A stretch of 64,000 nt of DNA from Homoserinimonas aerilata. GTDB lineage: Bacteria; Actinomycetota; Actinomycetes; Actinomycetales; Microbacteriaceae. The stretch is from NCBI RefSeq assembly GCF_006716125.1, contig NZ_VFOM01000001.1, forward strand, positions 1 through 64,000, read 5' to 3'. How positions within the stretch are numbered: position 1 is the stretch's first letter; every line of letters starts with the position of its first letter. A program made the position numbers and the translations under genes. The notes beneath the pieces are model-generated. The model was not told the DNA's origin and ran no database searches. It was given only the letters and a program-made list of their open reading frames with translations. Shown in pieces: positions 1 through 50,590 of the stretch.

Positions 1-1
1 T

Positions 2-1510
2 CTCCTCAACCCGGGCGTGCTCGTCGCCCCGCGTCCGCTCGACGCCGACCTGCGCCGACCGCAGGCGCTGCCCTTGCCGAAGGTGCGCGGCTTCGCCCTC
101 GACCACGACGGCGGCGACTTCACAAAAGCCGTGCACCGCTGCGTCGGAGTCGGCAAATGCCGGGCCGACAACACGGCATCCGGCGGCTTCATGTGCCCGT
201 CATACCTCGCCACGGGTGACGAGAAGGACTCGACTCGCGGCCGCGCCCGCGTGCTGCAGGAGATGGCCAACGGAACCCTCGTCACCGGCGGATGGCAGTC
301 ACCCGAAGTGCAGGAATCGCTCGACCTGTGCCTCTCATGCAAAGCCTGCGCGAGCGACTGCCCGGCCGGCGTCGACATGGCCGCCTACAAGTCGGAGGCG
401 CTGTTCAGACGCTACGAGGGGCGGATGCGACCGGTCACCCACTACGTGCTCGGCTGGCTGCCGCGGTGGGCGCGCCTTGCGTCGCCGTTCGCCCGCATCC
501 TGAACCCGCTGCTGCAGTGGCGGCCCCTGCAGCGGCTCGTGCTGTGGGCCGGAGGAATGGATGCGCGCCGCAGCGTGCCGCGCTTCGCGGACGTGTCGTT
601 CAGCAGGAGCCGCCGCACCCCACGCGGGTTGAGGGATCGCGCTCTGGCGCGATCGTCTCGAAACCAGCCCACCCAAAACTCGCGCGCCGGTCTCGAGACT
701 GCCGCCCTAGAGGGCGGCACCTCGACCAGCGGGTTGCCCACTACTCGCGGGTTGAGGGATCGCGCTCTGGCGCGATCGTCTCGAAACCCAGCCCCCCGCG
801 TGCTCGTCTGGGCCGACTCGTTCAGCGACAACTTCTCGCCGTCGATCGCGCACGCATCCGTCGCCGTTCTCGAGGCGGCAGGCTACGAGGTTGTCACCCC
901 GAAGCCGGTCTGCTGCGGGCTCACCTGGATCACGACCGGCCAGCTGACGGCCGCCCGCGCGAAGCTCTCCGCGCTGCTCGACGAGTTCACGCCGTATGTC
1001 GACGCGGGCGTGCCGATCCTCGGGCTCGAACCGTCGTGCACGGCCGTGCTGCGCTCCGATCTGCTGGAGCTGCTGCCCGACGACCCGCGCTCCGCCCGAG
1101 TCGCCGCGGCAACCCACACGCTCGCCGAACTGCTCGCCGCGCCCGAACCGATTGGCCCCGGCGCGCGCTGGTCGCCGCCGCGCCTCGACGGAACCGATGT
1201 ACTCGTGCAGCCGCACTGCCACCAGCACGCCGTCATGGGTTTCGACGCTGACACCCGCCTGCTGGAGGGGCTCGGAGCATCCGTCACCGCGCTCGCCGGA
1301 TGCTGTGGGCTGGCCGGCAACTTCGGCATGGAGAAGGGGCACTACGAGGTGTCGGTCGCCGTCGCGGAGAACGCGTTGCTGCCGGCGCTGCGCACGCGGG
1401 CGAGTGAGACGGTGTTCCTTGCGGACGGGTTCTCGTGCCGCACGCAGGCCGACCAGTTGGGCGCGACCCGCGGCATCCACCTGGCGGAGCTCCTCGCGGA
1501 GGCGCTGTAG
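2..1510 (+). CDS. FAD-linked / Fe-S oxidoreductase (D-lactate dehydrogenase-like), 5' end missing
   Basis: This is the C-terminal part of a large FAD-binding plus Fe-S-binding oxidoreductase of the Dld2/GlcD-GlcF fusion type, which oxidises a 2-hydroxyacid and passes electrons through Fe-S centres. The frame is open from base 2 and reads LLNPGVL, the usual linker just after the FAD-linked oxidase domain, so the FAD domain lies outside the window. Visible are a cysteine-rich ferredoxin-like region ending in CLSCKACASDCP (bases about 330-364, a 4Fe-4S motif) and two cysteine-rich CCG modules (PVCCG near 896, and HCHQH then CCGLAGNFG near 1217-1330) that bind a non-cubane cluster in heterodisulfide-reductase-like proteins. 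Between the ferredoxin part and the first CCG module about 60 residues come from intergenic-type palindromic repeats in frame. Substrate cannot be told; D-lactate or another 2-hydroxyacid is likely. Confidence 0.85.
   Translation, partial: LLNPGVLVAPRPLDADLRRPQALPLPKVRGFALDHDGGDFTKAVHRCVGVGKCRADNTASGGFMCPSYLATGDEKDSTRGRARVLQEMANGTLVTGGWQSPEVQESLDLCLSCKACASDCPAGVDMAAYKSEALFRRYEGRMRPVTHYVLGWLPRWARLASPFARILNPLLQWRPLQRLVLWAGGMDARRSVPRFADVSFSRSRRTPRGLRDRALARSSRNQPTQNSRAGLETAALEGGTSTSGLPTTRGLRDRALARSSRNPAPRVLVWADSFSDNFSPSIAHASVAVLEAAGYEVVTPKPVCCGLTWITTGQLTAARAKLSALLDEFTPYVDAGVPILGLEPSCTAVLRSDLLELLPDDPRSARVAAATHTLAELLAAPEPIGPGARWSPPRLDGTDVLVQPHCHQHAVMGFDADTRLLEGLGASVTALAGCCGLAGNFGMEKGHYEVSVAVAENALLPALRTRASETVFLADGFSCRTQADQLGATRGIHLAELLAEAL
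623..788. repeat. Three family-A palindromic elements inside a coding region
   Basis: Two identical 43-base copies (623-665 and 746-788), each with outer arms GGTTGAG/CTCGAAACC and inner arms GATCGCG/CGCGATC, flank one inverted copy (687-736, inner arms TGCCGCCCT/AGGGCGGCA). The two direct copies are 123 bases apart, a multiple of three, so both encode the peptide RGLRDRALARSSRN. The reading frame stays open throughout. The same element is otherwise found between genes in this window (18770, 25120, 42710, 45361, 50490, 59782, 60551). Confidence 0.9.
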
Positions 1511-1516
1511 CCCGTC

Positions 1517-1545
1517 GGCACCACCTCGACCAGCGAGTCGGCCGG
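1517..1545. repeat. Family-A half element
   Basis: The string CACCTCGACCAGCGAGTCGG is one arm of the family-A palindrome (reverse complement of CTGGTCGAGGTG), lying just after the oxidoreductase stop. The matching right arm is missing or decayed. Confidence 0.6.
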
Positions 1546-1594
1546 AGCAGCCGTTTGCCGTACTTGAGCCGGATGGAGGCGGGGCGCAACGCGA

Positions 1595-1622
1595 AAGGGC
1601 CGCCCCGAACGGGACGGCCCTT
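1595..1622. terminator. Bidirectional terminator hairpin
   Basis: AAGGGCCGCCCCG and CGGGACGGCCCTT pair around a short AA loop, with one G-C to C-A break. The hairpin sits between the convergent oxidoreductase and Bax-inhibitor-like genes and can serve both; the stem itself ends in A and T pairs but no long T tract follows. Confidence 0.7.
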
Positions 1623-1636
1623 GTGCGAAGCGAACG

Positions 1637-2422
1637 CTAGTCGCGGAAGATGGCGAGGAGGCGCAGGATCTCGACGTACAGCCACACGACGGTGACCATG
1701 ATGCCGAACGCGGCCTGCCATCCGAACACGCGCGGGGCGCCGCGCTCGACGCCGGTCTTCACATTCTCGAAGTCCATGACGAGCGAGTATGCGGCGAGCA
1801 GCACGATGAGGATGCCGAGGCCGATGCTCACGATCGGGTTCGCGTCGCGCAGGCCGAACATGCTTTCGGTGGCGCCGAATGCGACGAGGCCGAAGTTGAC
1901 GAGCGAGAACATGGCGTAGCCGACCATGCCGACGAGGAAGATCTTCGTCATCTTGGGGGTGGCGCGCACCTTGCCGCTGAGGAACAGGGCGAGCGTCACG
2001 CCGACGACGCCGAGCGTTCCGAACACGGCCTGCGGCACGATGTCGTAGCCGAAGCCGCTACCGAAAACGTAGGAGATTCCACCGACGAAGAGGCCTTCTG
2101 CGGCCGCGTAGGCGAGGATCAGCCCGCGCGACGGCTGCTTCTTGAAGATGTTGACGAGCGCGAGCACGAGGCCGGCGATGGCACCCGGGATCATCAGGAT
2201 CGGAACCATCCAGCCGACGACGGCCGTGGCGACGAGCACCGCGAAGGCGATGAGCGTCTTCACGATGGTGTCCTCGTAGCTCATGCGACCCGTGTCGGTG
2301 GGCGTGGCCGACGGGCGGCCGTACATGGCGTCGAGCTCTTCACTCGAGACGGGCTTCGTGTAGCTGGCGGCCTTGGCGCCGGAGGCGAAGGCGGGGGAGT
2401 TGCTGAATGCGGGGTTGGCCAT
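1637..2422 (-). CDS. Bax inhibitor-1/YccA family membrane protein
   Basis: A 261-residue protein with a hydrophilic N terminus of about 50 residues followed by seven closely packed hydrophobic segments, the layout of the Bax inhibitor-1/YccA family (eukaryotic BI-1, bacterial YccA and YetJ). Members are inner-membrane proteins, some acting as pH-gated calcium leak channels or FtsH modulators; the role in actinobacteria is not established. The start has a good ribosome site (AGGAGAAG, about 6 bases before ATG on the minus strand). It stands alone, convergent with the upstream oxidoreductase and ending at the shared hairpin. The acidic residues near the C-terminal helices needed for ion gating were not checked. 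Confidence 0.85.
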   Translation of the reverse strand: MANPAFSNSPAFASGAKAASYTKPVSSEELDAMYGRPSATPTDTGRMSYEDTIVKTLIAFAVLVATAVVGWMVPILMIPGAIAGLVLALVNIFKKQPSRGLILAYAAAEGLFVGGISYVFGSGFGYDIVPQAVFGTLGVVGVTLALFLSGKVRATPKMTKIFLVGMVGYAMFSLVNFGLVAFGATESMFGLRDANPIVSIGLGILIVLLAAYSLVMDFENVKTGVERGAPRVFGWQAAFGIMVTVVWLYVEILRLLAIFRD

Positions 2423-2554
2423 GATGGTCTTCTCCTGGGTCGGCCGGCTGCGTTGGTGGGAGTGCCGGTCTGTGGGTGCAACCTTCAGGCTATCGAATCT
2501 GTTCCTGCGGGAAGCTGCGAATATGCCTGCGAACGGATGCGCATCCGCCGTCGG

Positions 2555-3013
2555 TCAGCGGCCGGGCCCGAACAGTTCGATGCCCATGTAGACGATGAGG
2601 GCGACGCCGGCGATGCCCAGCACGACGCCGATGAGCAGCGGTACGTCGAGTTTCGTCTTCTGCCGTTCCGTCTTCTGCGCGGTCCTGCGGCTCGCGGGGG
2701 CGGCGGGCGTTTCGGATGCGTCGCCAGCAGTGTCGGATGCGGTCTGCGCCGGTTCCGGGCGGATGGCCGCGGGCACCGTCTCGCCCTGAATGGCCTCCCG
2801 TATCTCGGCGACGCTCGTGGGGGCATCCGCAAGCGGGGCATCCGCAACTGGCGCATCAGCAACTGGCGCATCCGCGACCGGCACCTCGAGGAGGGGCGCG
2901 GGCGCATCCGTGATGGGGGCGGCGGGCTCTGCGGCGCTCAGGTCTGCGCCGCAGTGAATGCAGAATTTCCATTCGGGCGAGAGCTGCCGGGCACAGCTGG
3001 GGCAGGTGGGCAT
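2555..3013 (-). CDS. Zinc-ribbon membrane protein, function unknown
   Basis: A 152-residue protein. Residues 4-24 hold a zinc ribbon of two CxxC knuckles (CPSC and CIHCG). A low-complexity middle repeats the unit PVADA/PLADA four times and is rich in Ala, Pro and acidic residues. One transmembrane helix follows near residues 126-147 (LLIGVVLGIAGVALIVYMGI) with a short tail. Such zinc-ribbon plus single-helix proteins are common in actinobacteria and have no assigned function; the ribbon would face the cytoplasm. On the minus strand a TAGCCT -10 box lies exactly 6 bases before the ATG, so the message is probably leaderless. It diverges from the glycerophosphodiesterase gene, leaving 54 bases for both promoters. 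Confidence 0.75.
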   Translation of the reverse strand: MPTCPSCARQLSPEWKFCIHCGADLSAAEPAAPITDAPAPLLEVPVADAPVADAPVADAPLADAPTSVAEIREAIQGETVPAAIRPEPAQTASDTAGDASETPAAPASRRTAQKTERQKTKLDVPLLIGVVLGIAGVALIVYMGIELFGPGR

Positions 3014-3067
3014 TCTGGCAGGCTAGCAACGATTGGCGGCGCGCGGGAATGGCCGTAGCGTTGCACT

Positions 3068-4153
3068 GTGGATGACGAGAACGCGACGACCGGGCAGCCC
3101 ATCGAGGAGCGCCCCCACGGTGAGGTGGCGCGCCATCCGGCCAGGCCGTCGCTCGGCCCAGCATCCCGCCCGCTGGTGATCGCGCATCGCGGTGCGAGCG
3201 GCTACCGCCCGGAGCACAGCCGTGCCGCCTACGAGCTGGCCTTCGCCATGGGTGCCGACGCGGTCGAGCCGGACATCGTGCCGACCCGCGACGGCGTGCT
3301 CGTGCTGCGCCACGAGAACGAGATCTCGGGCACGACGGATGTTGCCGAGCATCCGGAGTTCGCGTCCCGCAGGGCCACCAAGACGATCGACGGCATCGCG
3401 CTCACCGGCTGGTTCACGGAGGACTTCACGTGGGCCGAGCTGAGCACGCTGCGGGTGCGCGAGCGGCTGCCGAAGCTGCGCGATGCGAGCACCACCTTCG
3501 ACGGTGCGGACGGCATCCTGAGGCTCACCGATCTGCTGGCGATGCTGGATGCGGCCGGTCGGCCGGTCGGGTTGGTCGCCGAGATCAAGCACGCCGCCTA
3601 CTTCGAGTCGATCGGGCTGCCGCTCGACGAGCTGTTCGCGGCCGAACTTCGGCAGGCCGGGTGGGCGAACGACGAGCGCCTCACCGTGGAAAGCTTCGAA
3701 CTCGATGTGCTGCATCTGATCCGCGGCCGAGGCATCCGCGCATCGTATGTGTATCTCGTGGAGGCGAGCGGGGCGCCCGCCGACAGGGTCGCCCGCGATG
3801 GTGACGCCGCCCGCGCCTACGCCGACGATGTGACCCCGAACGGGCTGGCCGAGCTGGCGCTGCTCGTCGACGGCATCAGTGTCGACAAGCGGATGCTGCT
3901 GCGAGCGGATGCGGACGGCAACACCCTGGGGCTGGGCACGATCGTCGAGCGGGCGCACGCCCACGGGCTGACCGTGTTCTGCTGGACCCTGCGTGCGGAG
4001 AACCGCTTTCTGGGCAAGAACCTGCGCAGGCCGGGCGGCGCCGCCCGCTGGGGCAACTGGCTGGAGGAGTTCCAGCTGATCCTCTCCTCGGGCATCGACG
4101 GCGTCTTCGCCGACCAGCCCGACTTGGCGATCGAGGCGCGGGCGCGGCTCTGA
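3068..4153 (+). CDS. Glycerophosphodiester phosphodiesterase family protein
   Basis: A 361-residue GDPD-family enzyme that hydrolyses glycerophosphodiesters to glycerol 3-phosphate and an alcohol. The signature HRGASGYRPEHS at residues about 41-52 carries the catalytic His and the metal-binding Glu, and AVEPDIV about 25 residues later supplies the second acidic pair. The C terminus (IDGVFADQPD) is also typical. No signal peptide is visible, so it is probably cytoplasmic or loosely membrane associated. The GTG start is supported by a TAGCGT -10 box 6 bases upstream (leaderless). It is convergent with the aldolase gene, only 6 bases apart, with no terminator between them. Confidence 0.9.
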   Translation: MDDENATTGQPIEERPHGEVARHPARPSLGPASRPLVIAHRGASGYRPEHSRAAYELAFAMGADAVEPDIVPTRDGVLVLRHENEISGTTDVAEHPEFASRRATKTIDGIALTGWFTEDFTWAELSTLRVRERLPKLRDASTTFDGADGILRLTDLLAMLDAAGRPVGLVAEIKHAAYFESIGLPLDELFAAELRQAGWANDERLTVESFELDVLHLIRGRGIRASYVYLVEASGAPADRVARDGDAARAYADDVTPNGLAELALLVDGISVDKRMLLRADADGNTLGLGTIVERAHAHGLTVFCWTLRAENRFLGKNLRRPGGAARWGNWLEEFQLILSSGIDGVFADQPDLAIEARARL

Positions 4154-50489: not shown

Positions 50490-50590
50490 GCTGGTCGAGG
50501 TGGTGCGGTCTACCGCGCCAGTCTCGAGACCAGGCCCGCGGGTAGCTTGCTGGTCGAAGTGGTGCGGTCTGCCGCGCCAGTCTCGAGACC
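50490..50590 (+). repeat. Two family-A elements (second subtype)
   Basis: Two near-identical copies (50490-50531 and 50549-50590): CTGGTCGAGGTGGTGCGGT, CTACCGCGCCAGTCTCGAGACC and the same with CTGGTCGAAG and CTGCCGC. This subtype (GGTCGAGGTG...TCTCGAGACC) also occurs inverted at 687-736. They separate the convergent nagB and nagA genes in a 212-base gap and may end both transcripts. Confidence 0.85.

Follow-up and report, generated by a model that had tools for sequence, protein, structure and literature searches.

Palindromic repeats of a high-copy family, probably read as protein, in the inter-domain linker of a FAD/Fe-S oxidoreductase of Homoserinimonas aerilata

The window analysed here is a stretch of 64,000 nucleotides from Homoserinimonas aerilata, and its start is also the start of contig C1 in a genome of 2.84 Mb in six contigs. 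The first gene, on the + strand at 2..1510, is the 3' part of a FAD/Fe-S oxidoreductase gene, recognised in the frame list and its translation as 502 open codons ending in a TAG stop at 1508-1510, and carrying the Pfam domains Fer4_8, Fer4_17 and CCG. A 4Fe-4S dicluster domain (PF13183) occupies residues 44-124 (131..373, +), and a cysteine-rich CCG domain (PF02754, a weak match: 21.9 bits, cut-off 20.6) occupies residues 277-348 (830..1045, +). The initial annotation had called this gene 5'-truncated; the break is a contig end and not damage, since the coding sequence continues on contig C3 of the same genome. The end of C3 and the window share 371 bases (1..371, +) with one mismatch, at window base 1, and the terminal frame of C3 is open for 652 codons until the contig ends, with full Pfam matches to FAD_binding_4 and FAD-oxidase_C. 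Joined through this overlap, the two parts would make a gene of up to about 1031 codons. The window protein is about 62-65% identical to its best homologues across its whole length and retains cysteines C47, C53, C65, C110, C113, C116 and C120 (invariant or nearly so among 50 aligned sequences) and, in the same alignment, C304, C305, C346, C406, C434, C435 and C479. Codon usage scores as coding in a single frame on either side of the repeats described below. To judge from its sequence, the gene is apparently functional and no decay is visible.

Between the 4Fe-4S and CCG domains, as had been claimed, lie three palindromic elements, which make up a portion of the inter-domain linker at 616..800 (+; about residues 206-267), delimited by repeat comparison and low pLDDT. 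The first is a type-A element at 627..665 (+), which encodes RGLRDRALARSSRN; the second is an inverted type-B element at 689..727 (-), recognised by pattern match, whose + strand reading is GLETAALEGGTST; the third is another type-A element at 750..788 (+). Exactly 43 nt (623-665 and 746-788) are shared without a mismatch by the A copies, which are 88% alike across 59 nt, both lie within the open frame and start 123 nt apart, and RGLRDRALARSSRN is encoded twice; in these respects the initial annotation was accurate. The middle element is inverted, as it had stated, and is of a different sub-family: type A ends in GGTT..AACC and type B in GGTC..GACC, and the inverted copy belongs to the sister type B. 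Among the 146 elements of the genome, the A sequence of the window occurs in these two copies only. The 616-800 strand folds better than all of 200 dinucleotide shuffles (z -5.4), and phage and plasmid records gave no match to it. Just 3' of the oxidoreductase stop, at 1517-1535, is an apparent decayed B half (a 27-nt repeat of 713-739, 81% alike).

A search for a solved structure related to the window protein by sequence found none. The AlphaFold model, built with 50 sequences, has a mean pLDDT of 84.5, and confidence falls sharply in the linker: successive ten-residue blocks across residues 211-260 average 68, 50, 43, 54 and 58, against 93 at residues 191-200, 91 at 261-270 and 95 at 271-280. 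Within this low-confidence stretch the model places helices at residues 207-220 and 248-258, which are the two A copies. A linker of low confidence between confident domains is as expected of a spacer.

At 72 residues, the linker is long by comparison with a median of 28 (range 19-113) in 136 homologue rows, which comprise 119 proteins and 18 loci minus one fragment, and with a median of 43 (22-88) in 80 genome loci. Linkers at least as long and free of elements occur in 2 of the 136 rows, and 2 of the 80 loci are likewise at least as long. The excess over the closest loci runs from one residue (Salinibacterium amurskyense, linker 71) to 50 (linker 22), which makes the 'about 60 residues' originally said to have been added an upper figure. 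Because Salinibacterium linkers reach 50-71 residues with no element, linker length alone proves nothing; and because the linker is hypervariable, homologues do not simply join its two flanks, as had been predicted, and neither the exact insertion point nor the exact length can be read from them. The peptide words RALAR, GLRDR and ARSSR occur in none of 217 homologue rows (0/137 and 0/80), and no element is present in the 80 genome loci or the 18 relative loci. No near-identical, element-free allele was found, and all four same-genus genomes are without the oxidoreductase gene.

The elements belong to a large family. The pattern GGTY GAGG N8-38 TCTCGARACC has 146 matches in the genome, one of them nested in another, while the reversed pattern has none; together with the fold of the linker strand, this puts the repeats above chance. 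GGTTGAGG..CTCGAAACC occurs 70 times and GGTCGAGG..TCTCGARACC 75 times. The 146 elements, at distinct positions, group into 104 clusters and comprise 84 distinct sequences; their lengths range over 26-44 nt, with 39 nt in 59 of the 146. Each is built from an outer arm of 4 bp (GGTY/RACC), the fixed blocks GAGG and GTCTCGA, a covarying inner stem of 8-9 bp and a small loop. The outer pair formed by position 4 is T-A in 70 elements, C-G in 74, T-G in one and C-A in one, and the eight inner pairs from 9-28 to 16-21 are Watson-Crick or G-U in 57-59 of the 59 copies of 39 nt, with several pair types. The 5' flank has the consensus CCCGCT (G at -3 in 99%), the 3' flank is weakly C-rich, and no target-site duplication was resolved. 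Identical sequences make up 11 of 22 pairs of same-orientation neighbours within clusters, versus 200 of 10530 pairs (1.9%) between clusters. Copies with altered ends are excluded from the count of 146; one such copy lies in the window at 50552-50590, where it follows a B-type element at 50493-50531 in tandem and is missed by the exact pattern owing to its altered end (GGTCGAAG). Against Rfam 15 the family corresponds to no known structured RNA: nothing exceeded the gathering score, and three sub-threshold matches to microRNA models were the only ones. A search of the literature on palindromic repeats in Microbacteriaceae and on intragenic REPs in actinobacteria found no description of the family.

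Most copies lie outside genes. By our own codon-usage gene calls, 47 of the 104 clusters are in unidirectional gaps, 46 in convergent gaps, 5 in divergent gaps and 6 inside genes, and the nearest facing stop is at a median distance of 19 nt (at most 50 nt in 78 of 93). The window has 11 exact-ended elements in eight clusters, and its seven clusters other than that of the oxidoreductase are outside genes, in agreement with the initial annotation, where genes are those called by codon usage and not by annotation. Along contig C1, elements per 200 kb number 30, 18, 10, 3, 2, 0, 1, 5, 8, 13 and 1; the regions 0-600 kb and 1.6-2.1 Mb are rich and 0.8-1.4 Mb is poor.

Internal clusters are present in five genes: the oxidoreductase, menD (TIGR00173, 337.6 bits, cut-off 244.2), a DUF255 (Thioredox_DsbH) protein recognised in our own gene calls, a GH13 glucosidase (Alpha-amylase domain, with the maltodextrin glucosidase model below its cut-off) and dnaX (DNA_pol3_delta2 and DNA_pol3_gamma3). 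Two further clusters are in C-terminal tails, one in an aldehyde dehydrogenase from our own gene calls, which is the last of the six counted inside genes, and one in a protein with a GtrA domain by Pfam (L105:4612-5484), whose tail consists of two elements and runs into the 3' end of the neighbouring gene on the opposite strand; this seventh intragenic case is the weakest. We compared three genes with the closer loci among those fetched (menD 12 of 20, DUF255 10 of 16, GH13 9 of 16). The DUF255 region has 86 residues versus 42-62 and is shorter in all ten aligned relatives, and the GH13 region has 106 versus 57-84 and is shorter in all nine. The menD region has 106 residues, as compared with 79-86 where the genome is of the same genus (four genomes); the 12 aligned relatives include ten with a shorter region and two with a longer one, and one of these two itself carries an element. 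The element region of menD comes after the N-terminal domain, and the match to solved MenD structures stops there, at residue 201. For dnaX, length gives no support for an insertion: the 87-residue linker is matched or exceeded in 58 of 119 homologues (median 86) and shows no net gain, though the element is present. Two other frames that span elements (C1:552137 and C1:1685830) were dismissed as intragenic cases, their antisense frames scoring higher, and a shallow scan for frame-shifting insertions revealed no clear broken gene in 11 coding frames that enter elements.

The menD and GH13 cases are informative in other ways. In another genus (genome G012), menD contains a 33-nt element in frame at residues 210-221 (RVEEPRSGVSKP; L149:2130-2162), which occupies the same inter-domain linker as the element of the host menD and differs from it in sequence; thus, two lineages would have accepted different copies there. 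Further elements lie past the end of the G012 gene, as is usual for the family. The GH13 gene carries left halves of a B element at 132051, 132084 and 132117, ahead of a full copy at 132150; the period is 33 nt, or 11 codons (C3:132051-132188 in the host genome, G000; L122:1452-1589), which makes this an in-frame coding repeat that apparently grew from an element. All nine internal elements of the host genome are 39 nt long (p 0.0002; 5/5 by cluster, p 0.009), a post hoc observation. Both 39 nt and the 33 nt of the G012 menD element are multiples of three, counting the element alone without its insertion flanks.

The family is patchily distributed, its pattern occurring in 10 of the 59 genomes searched. 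Besides the 146 matches in the host genome, there are 357 in G033, 198 in G012, 18 in G010 (these three being of other genera), 5 in G013 and 3 in G022, and single matches in G006, G008, G047 and G051, of which the first three look chance-like by eye. Each of four same-genus genomes has none. Many of the 357 matches in G033 form regular inverted arrays. The family would thus be young in the host genome or have been lost from its congeners; spread is the simpler reading, favoured over loss because hundreds of copies with identical ends occur in unrelated genera, and absence from the four same-genus genomes with abundance in two other genera points to a recent date for it. As for the mover, the RAYT (Y1) transposase domain PF01797 was found in none of 12 genomes searched, the host's included and G012 and G033 lying outside the 12, in a search whose control was positive in 5 of 14 named genomes. 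No obvious transposase gene was seen between closely spaced elements, judging 25 frames by eye only.

Bacterial REPs mobilised by RAYT, and REPINs, are covarying hairpins in inverted pairs with a patchy genome-wide spread, features that the present family shares; it differs from them in the absence of PF01797 from the 12 genomes. Work attributed to Ogata et al. in 2002 reportedly found palindromes (RPE) in Rickettsia that had entered genes in frame, the encoded proteins probably being functional. The present family behaves likewise, with in-frame insertions that are absent from 10/10 (DUF255) and 9/9 (GH13) relatives and, in the oxidoreductase, peptide words absent from 137 and 80 rows, where the evidence of length is ambiguous. 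It is unlike RPE in that most copies lie outside genes and in that the host is of a different phylum. The comparison with RPE drawn at the outset therefore stands for behaviour, while kinship stands by analogy only.

By other measures the family is a REP in the broad sense, an imperfect palindrome of 20-40 bp at high copy (146 elements with a covarying stem) that is mainly extragenic and close to gene 3' ends, where the gap is convergent or unidirectional. Among the systems described by Di Nocera et al. 2013 (PMC3733652), GTAG and CGTC REPs are likewise short high-copy palindromes, mostly past gene ends in such gaps, with some copies in frame within genes, often as dimers or clusters and in replication genes among others. 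Intragenic REPs are described there in many species, adding up to 43-82 residues as dimers or clusters, and striking replication and repair genes; the same recB site is struck in two Xanthomonas, which the menD recurrence in the host and G012 resembles. That paper, which cites the Rickettsia work, never uses the word 'actinobacteria' in its main text; the present family differs in its actinobacterial host, in having neither a GTAG nor a CGTC unpaired end tag, and in the lack of a Y1 domain among the 12 genomes. Its 5' flank is CCCGCT with no GTAG, and where the CGTC super-family has an unpaired CGTC end and a tail near CCA, here GTCTCGA is internal, following the inner stem, the base before it is C or A as set by the stem, and the elements end in GGTY and RACC. 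Small mobile repeats of 103-168 bp, the enterobacterial RU/MITE, also become parts of proteins (Delihas 2007, PMC2759123); the present elements span 26-44 nt between terminal motifs. With regard to MITE features, CCCGCT is conserved upstream and C-rich sequence lies downstream, no duplication was resolved and the genes that lie between close elements look ordinary by eye. RepRanger (PMC12306157) counts REPs in three Actinomycetota genomes. Given the cases of Di Nocera et al. and Delihas, this kind of event is already known, and what would be new is this family, its host group and the menD case in two genera. To speak of a 'rare snapshot', as the initial annotation did, was too strong in view of four further internal and two C-terminal cases in the genome, the G012 menD and many bacteria besides Rickettsia (PMC3733652); its observation is confirmed and its interpretation partly supported.

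We consider it likely that a recently spread, REP-like family entered the oxidoreductase linker, and that the copies there are translated as a passive spacer. The frame, copy number, stem covariation, absence from homologues and same-genus genomes, and intact domains are what the sequences show; we infer the insertion event, the order of events, the translation, the mover and the neutrality. Spread of the family would be recent and probably driven by an enzyme acting in trans, and the flexible stretch that joins the 4Fe-4S domain to the CCG domain would have received one element. A local duplication then probably gave the second A copy, with the inverted B copy between the two; the identity of neighbours within clusters and the uniqueness of the A sequence to the window point to such an event. 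The total length added would be compatible with the frame, with no stop in any frame used, and selection would purge most genic insertions, namely those that shift the frame or strike a folded domain, while those in loops, linkers and tails survive. Since the repeats sit in a flexible linker without breaking the gene, the elements of the oxidoreductase, and those of several other enzymes, are probably read as protein, and the linker-borne copies may serve as passive spacer.

Alternatively, the hairpins may have been put to use. They could supply a peptide module, the charged helix GLRDRALARSSR being present two times, or act as RNA structures that make ribosomes pause or govern the relative amounts of the two protein halves. 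The strong fold of 616-800, the model helices on both A copies and the uniform 39-nt type of the nine internal elements would suit this reading, but those helices fall in a stretch of low confidence, the peptide is conserved in no homologue, the five genes are functionally unrelated and the length bias is post hoc, with the menD element of G012 at 33 nt; we regard it as unlikely. A still less probable account is that the oxidoreductase is a pseudogene or non-expressed remnant that gathers repeats, its frame open by the luck of a G+C-rich genome. Such DNA does yield long spurious frames (31 of at least 60 aa overlap bases 1-4000), read-through needs little when type A is open in about 4.8 of six frames and type B in 5.7, and the four same-genus genomes are without the gene; against this, we reject it because the FAD half continues open on C3 with full domain matches, the domain cysteines are all present and the coding score holds in one frame on both sides of the elements, to which the identity with homologues over the whole length may be added, so that the initial annotation's own pseudogene alternative is weakened. 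An old, ancestral origin of the linker segment, its repeat likeness being a convergence of G+C-rich low-complexity coding sequence, draws on some repeat-free homologues with long linkers and is nearly refuted by the 43-nt identity of the two copies, the full terminal pattern with its covarying stem, the occurrence of that pattern at over 140 other places, nearly all outside genes, and the absence of the peptide words from 217 rows.

The preferred reading, of a recently spread family with linker copies translated as spacer, admits a more tentative extension, which we think possible and rather doubtful: that this is a recently active Microbacteriaceae family moved by an enzyme other than Y1/RAYT, whose frame-neutral copies, of 13 codons (39 nt) or 11 codons (33 nt) and nearly free of stops in all frames, recurrently seed coding modules. 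Independent lineages would accept different copies in the same linkers, as menD in two genera may illustrate, with linkers of replication and vitamin-K pathway genes among them, and the copies could then expand in frame, as the 33-nt period of GH13 may illustrate. Beyond the single locus, the value of these genomes would lie in the dense sampling of a clade where palindromes turn into protein: one genome has five internal cases and about a hundred copies outside genes, its sister species lack the family, and a second genus has an independent case in the same linker. Hence, questions open since Rickettsia, concerning a mover without RAYT, the possible restriction of survivors to frame-neutral copies in linkers and the neutrality of the peptides, may now be testable in harmless, culturable relatives.
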